Virus record (IMG/VR): IMGVR_UViG_3300028840_001005
Span: 1 to 35,803 of that record
Source: a virus
Direction: 5' to 3' (one strand)
DNA: 35,803 bases
Part shown: positions 4,532 through 16,780 of the stretch, piece after piece
Layout of the letters: each line of letters begins with the position of its first letter
Position numbering within the stretch: the first letter of the stretch is position 1
Position numbers and translations under genes: made by a program
Notes under the pieces: generated by a model
The model's input: the letters and a program-made list of their open reading frames with translations, nothing else
What the model was told of the DNA's origin: nothing
Databases searched by the model: none

Positions 4532-5623
4532 ATGTCGGAAGAAAAACCTAGACGTAGAAGGAGGAAGTCCAAGGAGTTGCAGGCTTCCGTGAATAAGGCC
4601 ACGGAGGAGATGTTTAGTCCACTTCTGGAAAGTGATGTAAAGGATTGGATTAGTACCACCTGTACTTTGCTGGATTTGGCCATTACAGGAGGGCTTCCAG
4701 GAGGGATCCCAGTTGGGCGTATTTCCCATTTCTTTGGGGCCCCTAGCACCTGTAAGTCCGCCCTAGCCTGTGCCCTCCTAGGGTCCATCCAACGGAAGGG
4801 TGGGATTGGGTACTACGCTGATATAGAGAACACCCTATCCACGGATTTCTCCGGTATATGTGGATTGGATGTATCCGACACCGATTCGTTCAAATTGGGT
4901 ATATGGACAGAGAAAGGGGCGGAACCTACAACTGTGGAGGAGTTGTACGATGATTGGTTGGGTTTAGTTTTGCAGGAGCGTAACAGGAAGCTCAAACTGG
5001 CCATCGCTGACACTCTTACGGTTCTTCCGTGTAAACATGAACTGAAAGGTGAGTTATCGGATGGACACTCCCTGGGTGAACGGGCCAAGAAAATTGGGGC
5101 TGGGCTTCGGAAATACAACGCCCCTATAGCCAAGAAAAATCTCACTTTGGTGTTCCTGGATCAGACACGTACCAAGATGAATGCCATGTTTGGGGAGAAG
5201 GAAACCACTTCAGGAGGAGTAGGTGTTCCTTTCTATTCCTCCGTTCGTGTGCATCTTAAGCATCTTCAACCTATCAAGAATGATTTTGGGGTTGTTATTG
5301 GGGGATGGTTGAAGTTTCAGGTGGTGAAGAACAAGGTGGGGGAGGCACACGCCGAGGGGAAGTTTAGGTTGTTGTATAAACATGGAATTGATGACACTTA
5401 CACTAATCTGTACTTCTTGAAGGAGCACCAGCTGGGATCCAAGGCCGCCGCCAAGGCTTCTTCTATAATGCAGTATAGAGGACGGGAAGGGAAGTTGTCA
5501 ACGATTCTAAAATACATCGAGGACAATGATCTGGAAGAGCAGTTGGAGGCCGAGGTAGTTAAGGCCTGGAAAGAGGAACATGTCGGGGAAGAAAGGAAAC
5601 CACGAAAATGGAAGCGTTCATAG
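4532..5623 (+). CDS. UvsX/RecA-type recombinase
   Basis: A 363-residue RecA-family ATPase for homologous pairing and strand exchange, important in recombination-dependent replication and repair. The start is ATG 4532 after GAGGAAGAGGA. Motifs: a basic N-terminal tail (Arg/Lys run, residues 6-14), Walker A GAPSTCKS (69-76, with Cys where RecA has Gly, in the manner of divergent UvsX P-loops), Walker B LAIAD (about 156-160) and the L2 DNA-binding region VFLDQTR...MFGEKETTSGG (about 207-229), which aligns well with RecA. The C-terminus is Lys/Glu-rich. It overlaps the next gene by 16 bases, implying translational coupling. Confidence 0.93.
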   Translation: MSEEKPRRRRRKSKELQASVNKATEEMFSPLLESDVKDWISTTCTLLDLAITGGLPGGIPVGRISHFFGAPSTCKSALACALLGSIQRKGGIGYYADIENTLSTDFSGICGLDVSDTDSFKLGIWTEKGAEPTTVEELYDDWLGLVLQERNRKLKLAIADTLTVLPCKHELKGELSDGHSLGERAKKIGAGLRKYNAPIAKKNLTLVFLDQTRTKMNAMFGEKETTSGGVGVPFYSSVRVHLKHLQPIKNDFGVVIGGWLKFQVVKNKVGEAHAEGKFRLLYKHGIDDTYTNLYFLKEHQLGSKAAAKASSIMQYRGREGKLSTILKYIEDNDLEEQLEAEVVKAWKEEHVGEERKPRKWKRS

Positions 5624-6354
5624 GGTTAGATTTGTCGTTAAATCATTGGGCCATGGTAGTACAATTACCGGGGTGGGAGATTGGGGATGAAGAATCCATC
5701 TTGGGATACTTTGTTACTAACGTTAAGAAGTTCACAACAACCAACTCTACAGCCACGGCTCACTACCTTACCAAAAAAGCCAAGGGAATGGACAAGGATA
5801 ACTACCAAATAAGGAGGATACAGGAAAGTTTGGATCACTTACTGGCTTCCTTGGATGATATCACGGTAAAGAACAAGCAGGCCTTGACATTGTATGTGGC
5901 CATGGAAGGGTACTCCTATCAATCTGTTTCCAGTTCCTCCGCACAATCGGCAGAATTGGCGGGACATGTGAAGATGAATTTGTTTTCCAGATGGAACGCC
6001 AGTCTTCCCACCTATCTACGTATTCATGATCCTCGTAGTGTGAAGATGTTTGGCACTGGAAATGGTAACGCCACTAAACGTATGATGTACAAGGAGTTTT
6101 CCGTGTCGGCTCCTCCTGTGGTACAAAGTTTAGTTCCTCCCGCCCTGTTTGTCGAAAAGAAAAAGGATATTGATGGGCCAGGGACAGATCTGGTGGACGC
6201 CTACTATTTGTCCCAGATGTGTAAGGTGGAGCACTTCGTACGACAAGGCGTGTACACCTTGGAAAAACTACCGGAGGCACAGAGGAGAATCTTTCTTCGT
6301 GTTACAAAAACCAATCCAGTGAATTTACTGGCTAGACAGTATATCACGGTGTAA
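5608..6354 (+). CDS. RuvC-like Holliday-junction resolvase
   Basis: A 248-residue RNase-H-fold nuclease candidate, expected to cut four-way junctions left by recombination and replication before packaging. The catalytic acids fit RuvC spacing: Asp8 in IGLDLS, Glu100 in AMEGYSYQ, and Asp194/Asp197 in TDLVDAYYLS. A Gly-Asn-Gly-Asn-Ala-Thr-Lys stretch (151-157) matches the RuvC region with the conserved Lys. It is longer than E. coli RuvC (173 residues), with insertions between the first two motifs. The start overlaps the recombinase stop, so the two are probably made together. Confidence 0.85.
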   Translation: MEAFIGLDLSLNHWAMVVQLPGWEIGDEESILGYFVTNVKKFTTTNSTATAHYLTKKAKGMDKDNYQIRRIQESLDHLLASLDDITVKNKQALTLYVAMEGYSYQSVSSSSAQSAELAGHVKMNLFSRWNASLPTYLRIHDPRSVKMFGTGNGNATKRMMYKEFSVSAPPVVQSLVPPALFVEKKKDIDGPGTDLVDAYYLSQMCKVEHFVRQGVYTLEKLPEAQRRIFLRVTKTNPVNLLARQYITV

Positions 6355-6370: not shown

Positions 6371-6799
6371 ATGAAGCCCTATCGAAAATTTCGACCTTTT
6401 CAGATAAGATGGAAGGAGGCTCTGGGGCTGGAGGAATGTCCGTACCTGTATCGATGGACTTTTTTGTTTTTCAACTATTCCATTCGTATTCATCATTGGT
6501 TGAAGTCGGATGACATGAGATTCTTCCATGATCATTCTTGTGATTTTGTTTCAGTACCATTGAAAGGAAGATACTGGAACGTTACTCCCCATGGTGTTGG
6601 TGTCGCCAAACCTTGGAGGCCCTGGTTTTTTCGTGCTAAGCAACGACATTATTTGATGATACCTAAGGGTGGTGTTTGGACGTTACTGATATGTGGACGT
6701 CCTTATCATAAGTGGGGATTTTATGTGAAAGGGAAGAAGGTACGACCTTTACAGTATTTTCATAAGTATGGAGTAGTACAAACTGCTGATTATCAATAA
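6371..6799 (+). CDS. Cupin-like beta-barrel protein
   Basis: A 142-residue protein resembling a common phage/bacterial cupin-type family. Its signature is a W-L-K-S-D-D...FFHDHSCDFVS segment (about residues 43-60), in which the HDH is the likely metal-binding motif, followed by a beta-rich half with a second His region (QRHYLMIPKGGVWTL, about 95-109). The ligand or substrate is unknown, and I would not assign an enzyme name. The stop codon is directly followed by the tRNA-like gene. Confidence 0.6.
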   Translation: MKPYRKFRPFQIRWKEALGLEECPYLYRWTFLFFNYSIRIHHWLKSDDMRFFHDHSCDFVSVPLKGRYWNVTPHGVGVAKPWRPWFFRAKQRHYLMIPKGGVWTLLICGRPYHKWGFYVKGKKVRPLQYFHKYGVVQTADYQ

Positions 6800-6977: not shown

Positions 6978-8072
6978 ATGGAAGGCTATCTGGAATCTGC
7001 CAAGTTTGAAAATTTCCAGTCCCATGTGGATACCTATTTGGAGTTTTGTGATGGAGTAAACTTCATAATTGGTGTAGGGAACAATGGAAAGTCAGCCCTT
7101 ATAAGGGGACTGGATTGGTGTTGGACACTCCGGCCGAGGGGTAATGAATTCATCCACGATGACGCCGAGACTTGTGCTGTTACTACTACTTTTCGTAGGG
7201 GGGATAGGAAACTTTCGGTAGCACTTCATAGGGAGAAGAAAAAGGCACACTACGTCATTTCTAAGGGGAGAAGATCCTCCAATATCAATGCGAGTATCAA
7301 TCCTCCACGGGAAGTAACAGATCTGGTTAATGTACAGGGTATTAACGTACAGGGACAGTTTTCCCCTTACTTTCTTATCTTTGATTCCCCTGGTTCTGTG
7401 GCAAGATACATTCGTGAAATCGCCGGCCTGAATGAGATTGATCAACTTGTTAAGTTAGTGAAGTCCAAGATCACTCAGAAGGATCTACGATTGCTTAGTG
7501 TACGGGACGACATGGATAGGACGGATCTAGTCATAAAGGATCTTCAGGAGTTTCCCTTCGATACTGTAGATACCCTCATAGTGAAACTGGAGGATAACCA
7601 GGAGAAGCAAAAATCTTTGGAATCAAGGAACGAGCGTCTACAAGATCTTTTGGAGGAGATAGATTCCATTCAACGTTCTTTGGTTCCTGGTATAAACAGG
7701 AAGGTGAAACTGGCCAAGCAGATTGGTGAAGAGGGTTCCACTTTGGAACAATCCTGTATAAAACTGCTGGGATTGATATCCTCCATCGTCGGTTGTGATA
7801 AGATCATGAAGGTGGATTATGGTCCAGTACGGAACTTGTCGAGGGATTTACTGGACACCTACGCTAAGGTGTCTACTGAGTACTTTGATCTGGATGAGCT
7901 TTTGGAAGAGTTGGAGAATGTGGACGAGGAGTTAACCAAGGCGGTCCGTGGAATAGAAAAGACTAAACAGACGATCGGCTCTTTGAAGGAGAACCTAACT
8001 GAGTGTCCCACTTGTGGAACGGAAATCACCTCGGAGGAACAACGTAAACGTATACTAGAGGCGGGTGTATGA
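6978..8072 (+). CDS. Rad50/SbcC-type ATPase, N-terminal half (Walker A lobe, coil, zinc hook)
   Basis: A 364-residue protein starting at ATG 6978, GGAG 7 bases upstream; the frame is open further upstream but runs through the tRNA and terminator. It contains the N-terminal half of an SMC/Rad50 ATPase: a first strand and loop (AKFENFQSH), Walker A GVGNNGKSA (32-40), a Rad50-like globular region to about 200, then a coiled coil rich in Glu/Lys/Leu. It ends with a CPTC zinc hook (Cys343, Cys346) only 18 residues before the stop. The descending coil, signature motif and Walker B are missing here and are found in the gene at 9813-10433. Together the two halves are about 570 residues, close to T4 gp46 (560). 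The active site should therefore form from two polypeptides. Confidence 0.88.
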   Translation: MEGYLESAKFENFQSHVDTYLEFCDGVNFIIGVGNNGKSALIRGLDWCWTLRPRGNEFIHDDAETCAVTTTFRRGDRKLSVALHREKKKAHYVISKGRRSSNINASINPPREVTDLVNVQGINVQGQFSPYFLIFDSPGSVARYIREIAGLNEIDQLVKLVKSKITQKDLRLLSVRDDMDRTDLVIKDLQEFPFDTVDTLIVKLEDNQEKQKSLESRNERLQDLLEEIDSIQRSLVPGINRKVKLAKQIGEEGSTLEQSCIKLLGLISSIVGCDKIMKVDYGPVRNLSRDLLDTYAKVSTEYFDLDELLEELENVDEELTKAVRGIEKTKQTIGSLKENLTECPTCGTEITSEEQRKRILEAGV

Positions 8073-8647
8073 AGGTGAAGGGTATCAAACAGTGGCTGAT
8101 AACTGACACTCATTGGCATCATGATGCCACTAAGCGGTTTTGTAATCGTCCGGAGGACTACAATCAGAAGATTCGTTCTCTTTGGGAGTCCATGATAGGT
8201 ACAGAGGATATTGTATGGCACCTGGGGGATGTGGTATTTTACCGGCACAAGGAGTTCAAAGAGTGGTTTCCCTCTTTACCTGGACGGAAATTACTGATAC
8301 GCGGAAACCATGACAAGAAGTCGTACAGTTGGTATTTGGAGGCTGGATTTACCTGTGTGTTGGAATGTGCGGTCGTAAAATTCACGGAGGTTACTTCCTC
8401 CGGTCCTAGGAAGGGTGTAAAAGTCCTTTTAACCCATAAACCCAGGAAGATACCCTCCGACGTTGATATTTGTATATACGGACATACACACTTGCCAAGG
8501 ATAGAGCACAGGATAACAGATACAGGTGTACATCTTACGGATAACCATTATCTGTTATCCTTGGAGCATGTGAATTACAGGCCAGTACTTTTGTCTAGGG
8601 CCAGGTTTGACAAGGAAGTTTTACCAACTAGGGAGATTTTAGTATGA
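8069..8647 (+). CDS. Calcineurin-like metallophosphoesterase
   Basis: A 192-residue single-domain phosphoesterase with all family motifs: TDTHWHH (Asp13, His15), LGDV (Asp54), RGNHD (79-82), LTHKP (His123) and YGHTH (138-141), a complete di-metal site. It overlaps the Rad50 N-half stop by ATGA and the Mre11-like gene by ATGA. Family members hydrolyse nucleic-acid or nucleotide phosphoesters, but the substrate cannot be read from sequence. It is distinct from the Mre11-like enzyme next to it, so the operon carries two phosphoesterases. It may trim ends made by the Mre11 complex, or have an unrelated repair role. Confidence 0.85.
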   Translation: MKVKGIKQWLITDTHWHHDATKRFCNRPEDYNQKIRSLWESMIGTEDIVWHLGDVVFYRHKEFKEWFPSLPGRKLLIRGNHDKKSYSWYLEAGFTCVLECAVVKFTEVTSSGPRKGVKVLLTHKPRKIPSDVDICIYGHTHLPRIEHRITDTGVHLTDNHYLLSLEHVNYRPVLLSRARFDKEVLPTREILV

Positions 8648-9573
8648 GATTAGGGATTCTTGGAGATGCTCATTTTTCTGGGAGAAGACCGGAAAGTCGA
8701 ACGGATGAAGATTACTTCCAGACACAGATGGGGAAGTTGGATCAGGCCTTTACCTTTTTTGATGAGTGGAGTTGTGATTGTATCATACAAGTAGGTGATT
8801 TGTTTGATCGTCCCTCCACGGATAACGAGGTGAAGGCACAGTTAATCTCCTTTTTACGACATTGTAGTCTTCCTTTTTACTGTATCTATGGACAACATGA
8901 CATCTCCGGACATAGTGCGGATACTTTTTATAGAAGTCCGATGAGGGTTTTACAGGAGGCGGAGTCTCTGGAAGTAGTTGGTCAGACTGGTATACCAATA
9001 GCCAGTGGTGTGGATCTTTATGGGGCTTCGTTTAGGCAGCCGATCCCGGAGGTGGAACCCAAGGATGGTCTTTTTAATATTCTGGTGATACACGCCATGA
9101 TAGGAAGTCGTCCTTTGTGGCCTGGTCAGGAGTTGAAGAATCCAAAGAGGTTTCTACAAAAGCATTCGTTTGATTTGGTGCTTTGTGGAGATTATCACTA
9201 TAGTTTCCAGGAACAGGTGGGGGATAGGTGGATTGTGAATCCTGGGTGTTTGGTACGTAAGACTGTGGCCAAGTGGGATTTGGCACATGAGCCTATGGTC
9301 GGTATGTTTGATACCAAGAAAAGGACTTACAAAACACGGAAGTTGGATGTACTTCCTGTTGAAGATGTATTTCGTCTGGAAACCAGTAAGAAGGCTGTTG
9401 GAGATAGTGAGGCCTTAGACAAGTTCATAAGGAGTTTGAAGGAAAACAAAGTAAAGGGTACCGATTGGAAGGGTAGTCTACACGATATAATTGAAAAGGA
9501 TGGATATGGAAGTCGTATTTCCCATTTGTTTGATGGGTTCTTGGCTGAATTGGCAGAGATGGAGGACAAGTAA
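8644..9573 (+). CDS. Mre11/SbcD-type nuclease (gp47-like)
   Basis: A 309-residue nuclease expected to pair with the Rad50 halves and process DNA ends. Phosphoesterase motifs: LGDAHFSG (Asp8, His10), VGDLFDR (Asp52), YGQHD (about 83-86; Gln replaces the Asn of the usual GNHD), VIHAM (about 150) and CGDYHYSF (about 184-191). The C-terminal approximately 90 residues are helical and charged, as expected for the Rad50-binding region. Length is near T4 gp47 (339). It overlaps the upstream phosphoesterase and its stop abuts the next gene's ATG. Confidence 0.88.
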   Translation: MRLGILGDAHFSGRRPESRTDEDYFQTQMGKLDQAFTFFDEWSCDCIIQVGDLFDRPSTDNEVKAQLISFLRHCSLPFYCIYGQHDISGHSADTFYRSPMRVLQEAESLEVVGQTGIPIASGVDLYGASFRQPIPEVEPKDGLFNILVIHAMIGSRPLWPGQELKNPKRFLQKHSFDLVLCGDYHYSFQEQVGDRWIVNPGCLVRKTVAKWDLAHEPMVGMFDTKKRTYKTRKLDVLPVEDVFRLETSKKAVGDSEALDKFIRSLKENKVKGTDWKGSLHDIIEKDGYGSRISHLFDGFLAELAEMEDK

Positions 9574-9810
9574 ATGTCAGTATTTGATGATTTGAGAGAC
9601 GCAGAAAAAACTCTGGCCTCCTTACAAACTAAGCAGGAACGGTTGAAAGGGCAGAGGGATCAGTTGATGAAAAGTTTGAAGGAGCAGTTCGGTTGTGACA
9701 CCGTGGAGGAGGGTGAAGAGCTTTTCAAGAAAAAGGAAACTCGTATGAAGTCCTTGAAACAGGAGGCCAAGGACCTTCTAGGGGATTTGGAACCCTACTT
9801 GGAGGAGTAG
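9574..9810 (+). CDS. Small coiled-coil protein within the Rad50/Mre11 operon
   Basis: A 78-residue, almost entirely heptad-like, Lys/Glu/Leu-rich protein whose ATG directly follows the Mre11-like stop. One Cys (in EQFGCDTVEE, about residue 41) lies in the middle; there is no CxxC. Position between the Mre11-like gene and the second Rad50 half, plus coiled-coil content, suggests it is a piece or partner of the Rad50 coiled coil. That is inference. It resembles no named family that I can identify. Confidence 0.7.
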   Translation: MSVFDDLRDAEKTLASLQTKQERLKGQRDQLMKSLKEQFGCDTVEEGEELFKKKETRMKSLKQEAKDLLGDLEPYLEE

Positions 9811-9812
9811 TT

Positions 9813-10433
9813 ATGATTACTTTAGACGTCGCCAAGAAACTGGTGGAGAAAAAGCGTTTGAAACTCCAGGTGAGTCAGGAGAAGAAACTTGATTTACGAA
9901 AGGAGTTGAAGGGTCTCCGGAGGGATATGGAGGATCTCGAGACGTGTAAATCCATTGTGAATGAGCTTGGTATCGTAGTTCAGGAGGATATTCGTCGGTG
10001 TATCGAGACTCTTGTTACTCAGGCCCTTCAGTCTGTGATGGGGGAGGAGTACTCCTTTGTAGTGAAGAATGAGATTTCTAGGGGGACTGCGGAGACTTTT
10101 TTCTATGTAATGGATCATGGGAAGTTGCGTACACCGGAGGGATCCTTGGGTGGTACTGTGATCGATATCGTATCCTTCGCCCTGCGGCTGGTGGTTTGGT
10201 CTATTATGATGGATAGGACTCGTCCTCTGATGATATTGGACGAACCCTTCCGAAATGTAGATAAGACAGTACACATGGAGAAGTGTGGTGTAATGGTAAA
10301 GGAGTTATCCGAGATGTTGGGTTTACAATTCATATTCGTGTCACATGAAGTGGGTTTATCTGAGGTGGCAGCCGATAGCTGTTACGAGGTGACCAGGAAG
10401 AACAGGGTGAGTACAGTTCGGAGAATAAGATGA
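9813..10433 (+). CDS. Rad50/SbcC-type ATPase, C-terminal half (signature, Walker B)
   Basis: A 206-residue complement of the Rad50 N-half. It has a coiled coil in residues 5-50, then the ABC/SMC signature region (EGSLGGTVIDIVSFALRL, about 109-126), Walker B LMILDEP (139-145, catalytic Glu144), D-loop FRNVD, and the switch His in FVSHE (His178). No Walker A is present. GGAG-type spacing places the ATG 3 bases after the previous stop. This split at the hook means ATP binding requires association of two gene products. The stop overlaps the MazG gene (ATGA). Confidence 0.9.
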   Translation: MITLDVAKKLVEKKRLKLQVSQEKKLDLRKELKGLRRDMEDLETCKSIVNELGIVVQEDIRRCIETLVTQALQSVMGEEYSFVVKNEISRGTAETFFYVMDHGKLRTPEGSLGGTVIDIVSFALRLVVWSIMMDRTRPLMILDEPFRNVDKTVHMEKCGVMVKELSEMLGLQFIFVSHEVGLSEVAADSCYEVTRKNRVSTVRRIR

Positions 10434-14699: not shown

Positions 14700-14835
14700 T
14701 GACTGGTGGAATGAACACTTTGACAAGTTGTTATGGTTGTTATTGGATTTGTGCATAGGTATCGTTGTTTGTTTTTTCGTTTTTGTTGCCATCACCTATA
14801 TAATTGGTGTGTTAGGATCGTATGGATCTCCGTAA
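14680..14835 (+). CDS. Tiny single-span membrane protein (51 aa)
   Basis: ATG 14680 with GGAGG 9 bases upstream. The gene overlaps the end of the previous one and the first codons of terminase. A charged Trp-rich N-terminus (about 16 residues) precedes one long hydrophobic span (about 17-45) of Leu, Ile, Val and Phe, then a short polar end. Tight overlap on both sides shows it is a translated link in the operon. Function unknown; small holin- or pinholin-like proteins look similar, but nothing else supports that. Confidence 0.65.
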   Translation: MTTRKNDDWWNEHFDKLLWLLLDLCIGIVVCFFVFVAITYIIGVLGSYGSP

Positions 14836-16780
14836 AGCCAATACATTTTTGGATCACGTCACTCAGATGAATTACAACGAACCCCCTGCCACGGTTCAGC
14901 AAATTCTTTGTGATGATGAATTTCTAGGCACTCTTACTAACAATGGAAAGTCCGTTTATCCTGTATGGCATGAAAGCCTAGAACAGATGATGACGGAGGA
15001 TAGTAAGTACATGGTGGTACTTACAGGAGCCATTGGGATTGGAAAAACTAGGGCAGCCATTCGTGGTATGATAATAGCCATGCAGCGGATTCTATGTTTG
15101 AAGGATCCGTGGGCCTTCTTCAATTTGGAGAAGGGTGGTAAAATGGCAGTTGTGTTCTTTAATCTGTCCAAGTCACAAGGTAAGAGTAAAGGATTTACTC
15201 TGTTTCAAAGCTATATCAAGTCCTCTCCTTGGTTCCGGAGACGAGGGATATTACATGGGACTAGTTATGACCATCCTAGTTCCTGGCTGGAGATTCCTTT
15301 GTTTGATTTTAAGATCGGTTCTCCCTACATGAAGGGTTTTGGTAGTTTGGGTGAGGATGTGATCTTGAGTTTACTTGACGAGATCGACTCCCCCGATGAT
15401 AGCGAAAAACAGAAGATTCGTGTAGTTAAAGCGTTTCGCTCGGCTATACGTCGACATGAATCTCGTTTCGTTATCGACGGGGAGTCTCTTGGGAAATGTT
15501 TCTTGGTGTCCTCCAAGCAAGATGAGATGTCTTTTCTGGAACCGTTCATCACAGAGATGAAGGGGACCAATAGTGTATTTGTAGTGGATGTCCCTCTTTG
15601 GGTGGCTAAACCTGATGCCATGTTTTGCGGGGAGACTTTTCCTGTATGTACAGGTGACATGTATCACCCTCCTTCCATTCTTGAGAACCAACACCAGGTG
15701 AGAGAGAAGTTGGAGAAAGGATTTAAGGTGTTGGATGTCCCCGTGGAGTTTAGGACGGAGTTCGAGAGGGACATAGTTGGTGCGTTGAAGGACTTGGCCG
15801 GAGAATCGGTGGCGTCCTTACGTAAATCCAAGTTGTTCCCTTCTGAGGAGAAATTGAAGAATTCCTATGATAAGGAAAAACAGGATCCGTTCTCCCGACA
15901 GATTATACAATTGTCGATGGATGGTCCGGAGGATCTAATCGAGTATATGGATCTCAGTAAGATTCGTGTACCCAAGGGAGTTCCCAGGTATGGGCATACA
16001 GATATAGCTTTTTCTTCCAATGGGGATACTTGTGGTTTGGCTATGTCCAGCATCAGGGATTACAAGGATCAAGAAGTAGAGTTGGAGGATGGACGGTTCG
16101 AGCTTAGGAAGATGCCTGTTGTAGAAACGGATTTTGTTGTAGGTGTACGAGGAAGGGATGGCCAGGAGATTCCTATGTTTAAGCTCCGCAAGTTTATCTT
16201 GGACTTACGATTGGTAGGATTCAACATTTGTGGATGGACGTATGACCTTAGGTTAGCGAGTTTTGAGACGGAACAGATTTTACAGAGACGGGGGATAGAA
16301 ACTGGATATCTTTCTTTAGACCGTACTAGGGAGGTATACTACGCCTTTAGAGATGTTGTGAGGGAGGGACGTTGGATCGTACACGAGAGTAAAGTACTCC
16401 ATTTTGAATTAGCCAATTTGGAGGATAGGAAGAACGAAGCCAAGATCGATCACCCCGAGAAGGTTTCCACGGTGGTGTTTTTGGAGGATGGTAAACGTAC
16501 AGATGTTGTTCTTAGTGGTTCTAAGGATTTGGCGGACGCCGCAGCTGGGTCTGTGCATAACGCCATACAAGGGGAACAAACTCCGCCCGATACAGCCAAG
16601 ATGAAGGAGATGATGAAAAAGATTCGGAATCCTGCTACCAAGGCCGCGGAGGATCCTAATGCTTGGTACGCCGATCTGAAACAAAAAGCTCCGAAGGATC
16701 CAACGGAATCCAAGGAACCAAAACGATCCAGCGTGAATACAGGTTCCATGAAGGAAATATTCAGGCGAATAGGTCGATGA
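14822..16780 (+). CDS. Terminase large subunit (packaging ATPase and nuclease)
   Basis: A 652-residue motor. Walker A is LTGAIGIGKTRAA (about 67-79) and Walker B ILSLLDEID (181-189, Asp186/Glu187), with an adenine-motif-like PVWHESLEQM before. The second half is an RNase-H-type nuclease region, with a first acidic strand in HTDIAFSSNGDTCGLAMS (about 397-414). The C-terminal 80 residues are polar and Lys-rich. It pumps DNA into the prohead through the portal and cuts it. The portal gene is 17 kb downstream rather than adjacent. The start is ATG 14822 within the small membrane gene; the stop overlaps the sigma-like gene by ATGA. Confidence 0.9.
   Translation: MDLRKANTFLDHVTQMNYNEPPATVQQILCDDEFLGTLTNNGKSVYPVWHESLEQMMTEDSKYMVVLTGAIGIGKTRAAIRGMIIAMQRILCLKDPWAFFNLEKGGKMAVVFFNLSKSQGKSKGFTLFQSYIKSSPWFRRRGILHGTSYDHPSSWLEIPLFDFKIGSPYMKGFGSLGEDVILSLLDEIDSPDDSEKQKIRVVKAFRSAIRRHESRFVIDGESLGKCFLVSSKQDEMSFLEPFITEMKGTNSVFVVDVPLWVAKPDAMFCGETFPVCTGDMYHPPSILENQHQVREKLEKGFKVLDVPVEFRTEFERDIVGALKDLAGESVASLRKSKLFPSEEKLKNSYDKEKQDPFSRQIIQLSMDGPEDLIEYMDLSKIRVPKGVPRYGHTDIAFSSNGDTCGLAMSSIRDYKDQEVELEDGRFELRKMPVVETDFVVGVRGRDGQEIPMFKLRKFILDLRLVGFNICGWTYDLRLASFETEQILQRRGIETGYLSLDRTREVYYAFRDVVREGRWIVHESKVLHFELANLEDRKNEAKIDHPEKVSTVVFLEDGKRTDVVLSGSKDLADAAAGSVHNAIQGEQTPPDTAKMKEMMKKIRNPATKAAEDPNAWYADLKQKAPKDPTESKEPKRSSVNTGSMKEIFRRIGR

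Follow-up and report, generated by a model that had tools for sequence, protein, structure and literature searches.

Separately encoded chains of a Rad50-type ATPase, divided at the zinc hook, in a phage module with relatives in Bacillota

The 35,803-nucleotide viral record IMGVR_UViG_3300028840_001005 (referred to here, at its full length, as the window) carries five consecutive open reading frames (ORFs) in which the motifs of one Rad50/SbcC-type ATPase are shared between the first and the last: the first, the N-half, has the Walker A motif and ends shortly after a CxxC zinc hook, and the last, the C-half, has the signature, Walker B and switch histidine. Between them lie two phosphoesterase genes, one of them Mre11-like, and a gene for a small heptad-repeat protein, which we call S. 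This module very probably encodes a functional Mre11–Rad50 DNA-end-processing complex of the SbcCD or gp46/gp47 type, with Rad50 permanently divided among separately encoded chains. The five reading frames, the partition of the motifs and the stop soon after the hook had been given in a preliminary description of this DNA, and translation bears them out; as to its statement that the parts sum to an ordinary phage Rad50, the N- and C-halves together comprise 570 amino acids, or 648 with S, compared with 560 for T4 gp46. The genes run head to tail: there are 4-nucleotide overlaps between the N-half and the first phosphoesterase and between the latter and the Mre11-like gene, S abuts the Mre11-like gene, and a 2-nucleotide gap separates S from the C-half.

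Motifs and conservation of the chains

Relatives were gathered through the C-half, the N-half alignment being too diverse for use as a scan query. A megablast search against phages gave no match, nor did a direct scan with the single C-half sequence; a search with an alignment of three C-halves yielded 120 viral contigs, of which 80 were kept, and one with an alignment of 59 added 50 loci from bacterial genomes and metagenome-assembled genomes, one of them archaeal. Profiles for the N-half, C-half, S and Mre11 were run over all ORFs. Of 171 loci, 129 are non-redundant, and in 115 of them the 3′ end of the N-half is complete (57 in viral and 58 in cellular records).

The N-half matches AAA_23 (E 2.5e-9) and phrog_16465, annotated as 'exonuclease' (E 6e-23), and it has no Walker B motif. 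Within Walker A, residues G32, G37 and K38 are invariant among 50 N-halves, and the motif is seen in 92 of the 115; the others are 5′-incomplete, except for one fragmented locus (L092). At the opposite end of the chain, C343 is invariant, and P344 and C346 are each conserved in at least 90% of the alignment. A CxxC occurs in the last 80 residues in 114 of the 115 loci, with 4–44 residues (median 17) following it, and in the last 45 residues in 113, against a mean of 0.7 and a maximum of 4 in shuffled sequences; chance is thereby ruled out for the terminal motif. In profile searches of the PDB, Rad50 N segments (3aux, 3qkr_A and 1ii8_A) rank above SMC, RecF and RecN, and an AlphaFold2 (AF2) model of the window N-half, built on a 50-row alignment (pLDDT 86.7), finds its best PDB matches by Foldseek in the N segments of P. 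furiosus Rad50 (9a9j_A and 1ii8_A).

The C-half is complementary, having no Walker A motif but the three motifs that the N-half chain would need to complete an ATP site. Residues L142, D143 and E144 are invariant among 59 C-halves, and H178 is invariant in A1. The signature of the window protein reads SLGGT instead of LSGGE; the GG pair is kept throughout the family, where the usual form is xGGG. The AF2 model of the C-half (pLDDT 94.4, pTM 0.80) consists of a helix, residues 4–76, followed by lobe II. Its Foldseek matches include the Rad50 chains 1f2t_B, 1ii8_B, 3qkr_B and 9a9j_B, with an SMC C-terminal chain, 5h66_B, placed first by a small margin; by profile, 3qkr_B and 1ii8_B rank above SMC, RecF and RecN. 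Two C-half ORFs (L072:7076-7990 and L073:5299-6186) carry an N-terminal extension of ~90 residues that contains proline and lacks heptads.

The small coil gene, which the preliminary description treated as incidental, turns out to be a conserved part of the system: S is detected by profile in 111 of the 115 loci, and in 93 of these 111 its gene overlaps or lies within 50 nucleotides of that for the C-half, usually just upstream. Hydrophobic heptads at residues 3–39 and 44–78 flank a conserved turn with a serine or threonine cap at position 43, and this family with fixed heptads and turn rules out a chance short ORF. Against the PDB, S matches only generic coiled coils. We infer that it is the third chain of the split Rad50, and an arm subunit.

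The fourth component, the Mre11-like nuclease, is part of the module wherever the flanking sequence sufficed: it was found in 94 of the 115 loci, and the other 21 all have only about 1.5 kb of flank. Archaeal Mre11 ranks first when its family profile is compared with the PDB. Motif III of the phosphoesterase, in which the asparagine of GNHD is normally a metal ligand, reads GQHD in 33 of the 57 viral loci, the window among them, and in none of the bacterial loci. The preliminary description placed both phosphoesterases within the module; the Mre11-like one is indeed a core component, whereas the first, a phrog_547 protein, is a neighbour of the module in no loci other than the window and three related contigs (L011, L013 and L014), a distribution that rules it out as a core part, and it is probably a passenger.

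Distribution in phages and on chromosomes

The gene order is N-M-S-C (M being the Mre11-like gene) in 50 loci, M-N-S-C in 34, N-S-C in 20 with short flanks, and N-S-C-M in 7. The window and the surveyed loci all encode the two lobes in separate genes, apart from three loci of Bacillota_A (L175:3152-5254, L176:3764-5818 and L177:3083-5170), in which a single chain of ~700 amino acids joins Mre11, lobe I and lobe II without a coiled coil, a zinc hook or S, and adjoins an AddB-like gene. The joint absence of arm, hook and S from these M-N-C fusions ties S to the arm. In one further locus (L054:5153-7276), Mre11 and the N-half form one 707-residue ORF that ends with a CPLC hook, and S was not detected there. 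No N-S-C fusion occurs among the surveyed loci, which were found via C-half searches; such searches are able to show fused forms, since the three M-N-C fusions turned up in this way. The suggestion that related phages be checked for fused or equally split versions thus has an answer: the equal split is widespread, in bacteria as well as in phages, and the claim of a stable split, as opposed to decay, is strongly supported.

Two named phages were recovered by tblastn with the C-half. In Bacillus phage vB_BboS-125, the break is at the same place: gp32 ends GGICPLCEQTHKGGGC and is followed by an AP2 gene, a gene for a 78-residue helical protein, the C-half and a Mre11 gene, such that gp32, gp34 and gp35 correspond to the N-half, S and the C-half. 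The Mre11-like gene (L001:7827-8807) is unannotated in the record, NC_048735.1. In Microbacterium phage Magritte, the genes are scattered over a genome of 133 kb (N-half gp155, Mre11 gp228, S gp245 and C-half gp2) and, if they act together, the parts must meet there as separate proteins. Magritte gp4, annotated as 'ASCE ATPase', was considered as the N-half and rejected, as it is clamp-loader-like by sequence; the true N-half is gp155.

On bacterial chromosomes, an M-N-S-C operon immediately follows recA in Peptoniphilus, Thermoactinomycetaceae, Alkalicoccobacillus, Urinicoccus and others, often upstream of rny/ymdB and with cinA nearby; these neighbours mark it as part of the core chromosome and not of a prophage. 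A stand-alone C-half (E < 1e-46) is present in 60 of 398 Bacillota_A genomes (one of them, G165, phage-like) and in 28 of 200 Bacilli genomes, which places the split module in roughly one of every seven Firmicute species sampled. In the C-half tree, a large chromosomal clade stands apart from those of the phages (about 7 label changes), from which it follows that both lineages have long had the break. Canonical SbcC (TIGR00618, E < 1e-30) was found in none of 24 split-positive Bacillota_A genomes, as against 10 of 24 split-negative ones, where its open frames span about 1040–1225 amino acids (one-sided Fisher test, ~3e-4, for genomes that are not phylogenetically independent); nor was it found in ten further carriers. 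The curated TIGR00618 cut-off was exceeded by only 1 of 14 controls and so proved too stringent; SbcC was, therefore, judged by E-value and open-frame length. In carrier Firmicutes, the split module apparently stands in place of the usual SbcCD.

Positions of the module genes, their motifs and two functional neighbours are collected in the table below. Besides the latter two, the Pfam and PHROGs matches in the window include a DNA polymerase fragment, a clamp loader, a weak UvsY-like match, a MazG-like protein and a polymerase exonuclease subunit, which places the module among genes of replication and recombination. A gene at 6371–6799, lying between those for the RuvC-like protein and the N-half, matches phrog_4786, 'cysteine dioxygenase' (E 2.9e-26). 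Elsewhere, an ORF of 652 amino acids at 14822–16780 has no PHROG match at E 0.001.

Features of the split Rad50 module and functional neighbours (window coordinates)
Feature	Position	Strand	Details
N-half of Rad50	6978..8072	+	364 aa (amino acids); ABC lobe I, ascending helical arm and C-terminal CxxC hook
Walker A GVGNNGKS	7071..7094	+	N-half residues 32-39, from translation
Zinc-hook motif CPTC	8004..8015	+	N-half residues 343-346; stop 18 residues on
Calcineurin-like phosphoesterase, probable passenger	8069..8647	+	phrog_547
Mre11/SbcD-like nuclease subunit	8644..9573	+	Metallophos E 1.9e-10; phrog_100 SbcD-like E 5e-7
S, two-segment heptad helix protein	9574..9810	+	78 aa; conserved in 111/115 loci
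C-half of Rad50	9813..10433	+	206 aa; descending helix 4-76 and ABC lobe II; phrog_15167 E 5e-22
ABC signature region SLGGT, atypical	10143..10157	+	C-half GG113-114, from translation
Walker B LMILDE	10227..10244	+	C-half residues 139-144
Switch histidine (SH)	10344..10346	+	C-half H178, from translation
UvsX/RecA recombinase, functional neighbour	4532..5623	+	Pfam RecA E 2e-35; phrog_97 E 1.5e-46
RuvC-like resolvase, functional neighbour	5608..6354	+	phrog_159 E 5e-14

Assembly of the complex and alternative explanations

In the assembly that we propose, the N-half would contribute lobe I, which contains Walker A, and a helical arm ending in the zinc hook, the C-half would supply a helix of ~70 residues and lobe II, with the signature, Walker B and switch histidine, and S would give further helical material to the arm or its base. 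By analogy with Rad50 biochemistry, the N- and C-halves would join non-covalently into one ABC head, ATP would cause two such heads to dimerize over a DNA end that a Mre11 dimer holds, and the hooks of two N-halves would share one zinc; least certainly, S may pack, along with the C-half helix, against the proximal stretch of the N-half arm. In the phage, the processed DNA ends could then be fed to the products of the adjacent UvsX/RecA and RuvC genes for recombination-dependent replication and repair, whereas in Bacillota the split complex would serve as the resident SbcCD. The preliminary description had the two halves meeting at the zinc hook. The hook does indeed end the N-half; within one Rad50, however, the likeliest contacts between the N- and C-halves are at the ATPase head and the foot of the coil, and the hook would join two N-halves. 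There is a precedent for a two-polypeptide head in the separate N and C chains of the P. furiosus Rad50 entries. It is also plausible for a hook to stand at the end of a chain, given that a 14-residue P. furiosus hook peptide forms a stable zinc dimer with a near-native hairpin (PMC5093744) and that zinc hooks are stable dimerization modules (PMC6969161).

A number of observations weigh against this assembly. The C-half signature motif is degenerate (xGGG/xGGT); the pTM of the N-half model is only 0.48, with a low-confidence break at residues 276–282; and gp155 of Magritte (L010:1839-2891) has no CxxC at all, and is, thus, a hook-less variant. Co-variation of the chains speaks in its favour, the distance matrices of the N-half, S, C-half and Mre11 families correlating at 0.59–0.90, against permutation maxima of 0.08–0.20, although this correlation stems in part from shared phylogeny. 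The arm lengths are puzzling: long helices are predicted in both halves, but S and the C-half helix together stay near 150 residues, while the N-half arm varies from ~190 residues in phages to ~300 in bacteria, such that a simple, full-length antiparallel 1:1 pairing of the N-half with S plus the C-half cannot hold. The N-half arm would have to be partly unpaired, fold on itself, or pair with two or more copies of S.

The same mismatch bears on the alternative that the arm is canonical, with S and the C-half helix as the descending coil in pieces, matching the N-half arm residue for residue, and the split architecturally neutral. The usual placement of S directly upstream of the C-half and its loss along with the arm would suit this arrangement. 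Nevertheless, we think it unlikely, as the Walker A-to-hook distance falls into distinct classes (near 300–320, 380–400 and 420–440 residues) that differ by >100 residues with S and the C-half nearly constant, and the central turn of S between two equal heptad segments suggests a helical hairpin rather than one straight helix. If the halves were instead independent of one another, with the N-half a hook-dimerized DNA-binding or tethering protein, the C-half a regulator of Mre11, and no common ATP site, the dispersal of the module genes in Magritte would fit. This is quite improbable, however: neither half has the ATP-site motifs found in the other, almost all loci with sufficient sequence contain both, the two co-vary, and the three M-N-C fusions join both lobes in one chain.

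The weak resemblance of the N-half to PtuA- and GajA-type ATPases in the PDB profile search raises the prospect of a defence or counter-defence ABC ATPase in place of recombination machinery; this we consider very improbable, for the Rad50 matches outrank those to the PtuA/GajA type, the partner is Mre11, and the bacterial copies occupy a conserved cinA-recA/rny neighbourhood in genomes without SbcC. Finally, gene splitting is common in phages, and the window might hold a recent fission or pseudogenization of an ordinary gp46 in a single lineage. As an event of one phage, this is ruled out by the survey of 115 loci, with the break at the hook in 114; the same break in diverse phages and in a well-separated chromosomal clade, with all of the motifs intact, leaves it vanishingly improbable.

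Relation to known systems and significance

The working parts of the module are those of Mre11–Rad50; it departs from that system in the single-chain feature and adds a third conserved chain. In common with T4 gp46/gp47, E. coli SbcCD and archaeal Rad50–Mre11, it pairs a Mre11-type phosphoesterase with a Rad50-type ABC ATPase that has a CxxC hook, near UvsX/RecA; in those systems, though, Rad50 is one polypeptide, whereas here there are N-half, S and C-half genes, and a chain that ends at the hook. The co-expressed P. furiosus segments (1f2t, 1f2u, 1ii8, 3qkr and 9a9j) likewise form a head from two chains, but they are engineered and lack the full arm or hook, whereas the present split is natural and leaves both on the N chain. 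Variable gene architecture is shared with Mimivirus R555 and other Mre11–Rad50 fusions (PMC3175470), and M-N and M-N-C fusions occur here too; R555-type proteins, however, have Mre11 fused to Rad50, in contrast to the separate ORFs, the cut at the hook and the third chain of the window. Within the split family, fusions of Mre11 with parts of Rad50 are confined to L054 and L175–L177. Unlike SMC with its hinge, or RecF with its arm-less head, the module has a terminal CxxC; SMC, RecN and RecF are outranked by Rad50 chains in the profile searches.

The same proteins have been catalogued before, as phrog_16465 ('exonuclease') and phrog_15167 ('ATPase') and as gp32, gp34 and gp35 of vB_BboS-125, albeit as separate proteins that are not named as one Rad50 in the records examined. 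The openly licensed (CC0, CC BY or CC BY-SA) PMC literature yielded no earlier account of a split Rad50, although one may exist elsewhere.

On balance, we lean towards a broader view, in which a three-chain Rad50 (N, S and C) serves roughly 15% of Bacillota species, and many phages, as the resident break-end processor, the hooked arm being separate from the signature half, S being a dedicated arm subunit without a known counterpart, and arm and head being separately exchangeable or regulable. In textbook accounts, Rad50 and SMC proteins are each a single chain with an arm that folds back on itself, and the finding touches on the question of how their hook, arm and head communicate. In the carriers examined, which have no recognizable SbcC, the split module fills an apparent gap. 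If our reading is correct, a continuous chain through the hook would be dispensable, and there would be a natural system in which the arm (N), S and one half of the head (C) can be exchanged separately.

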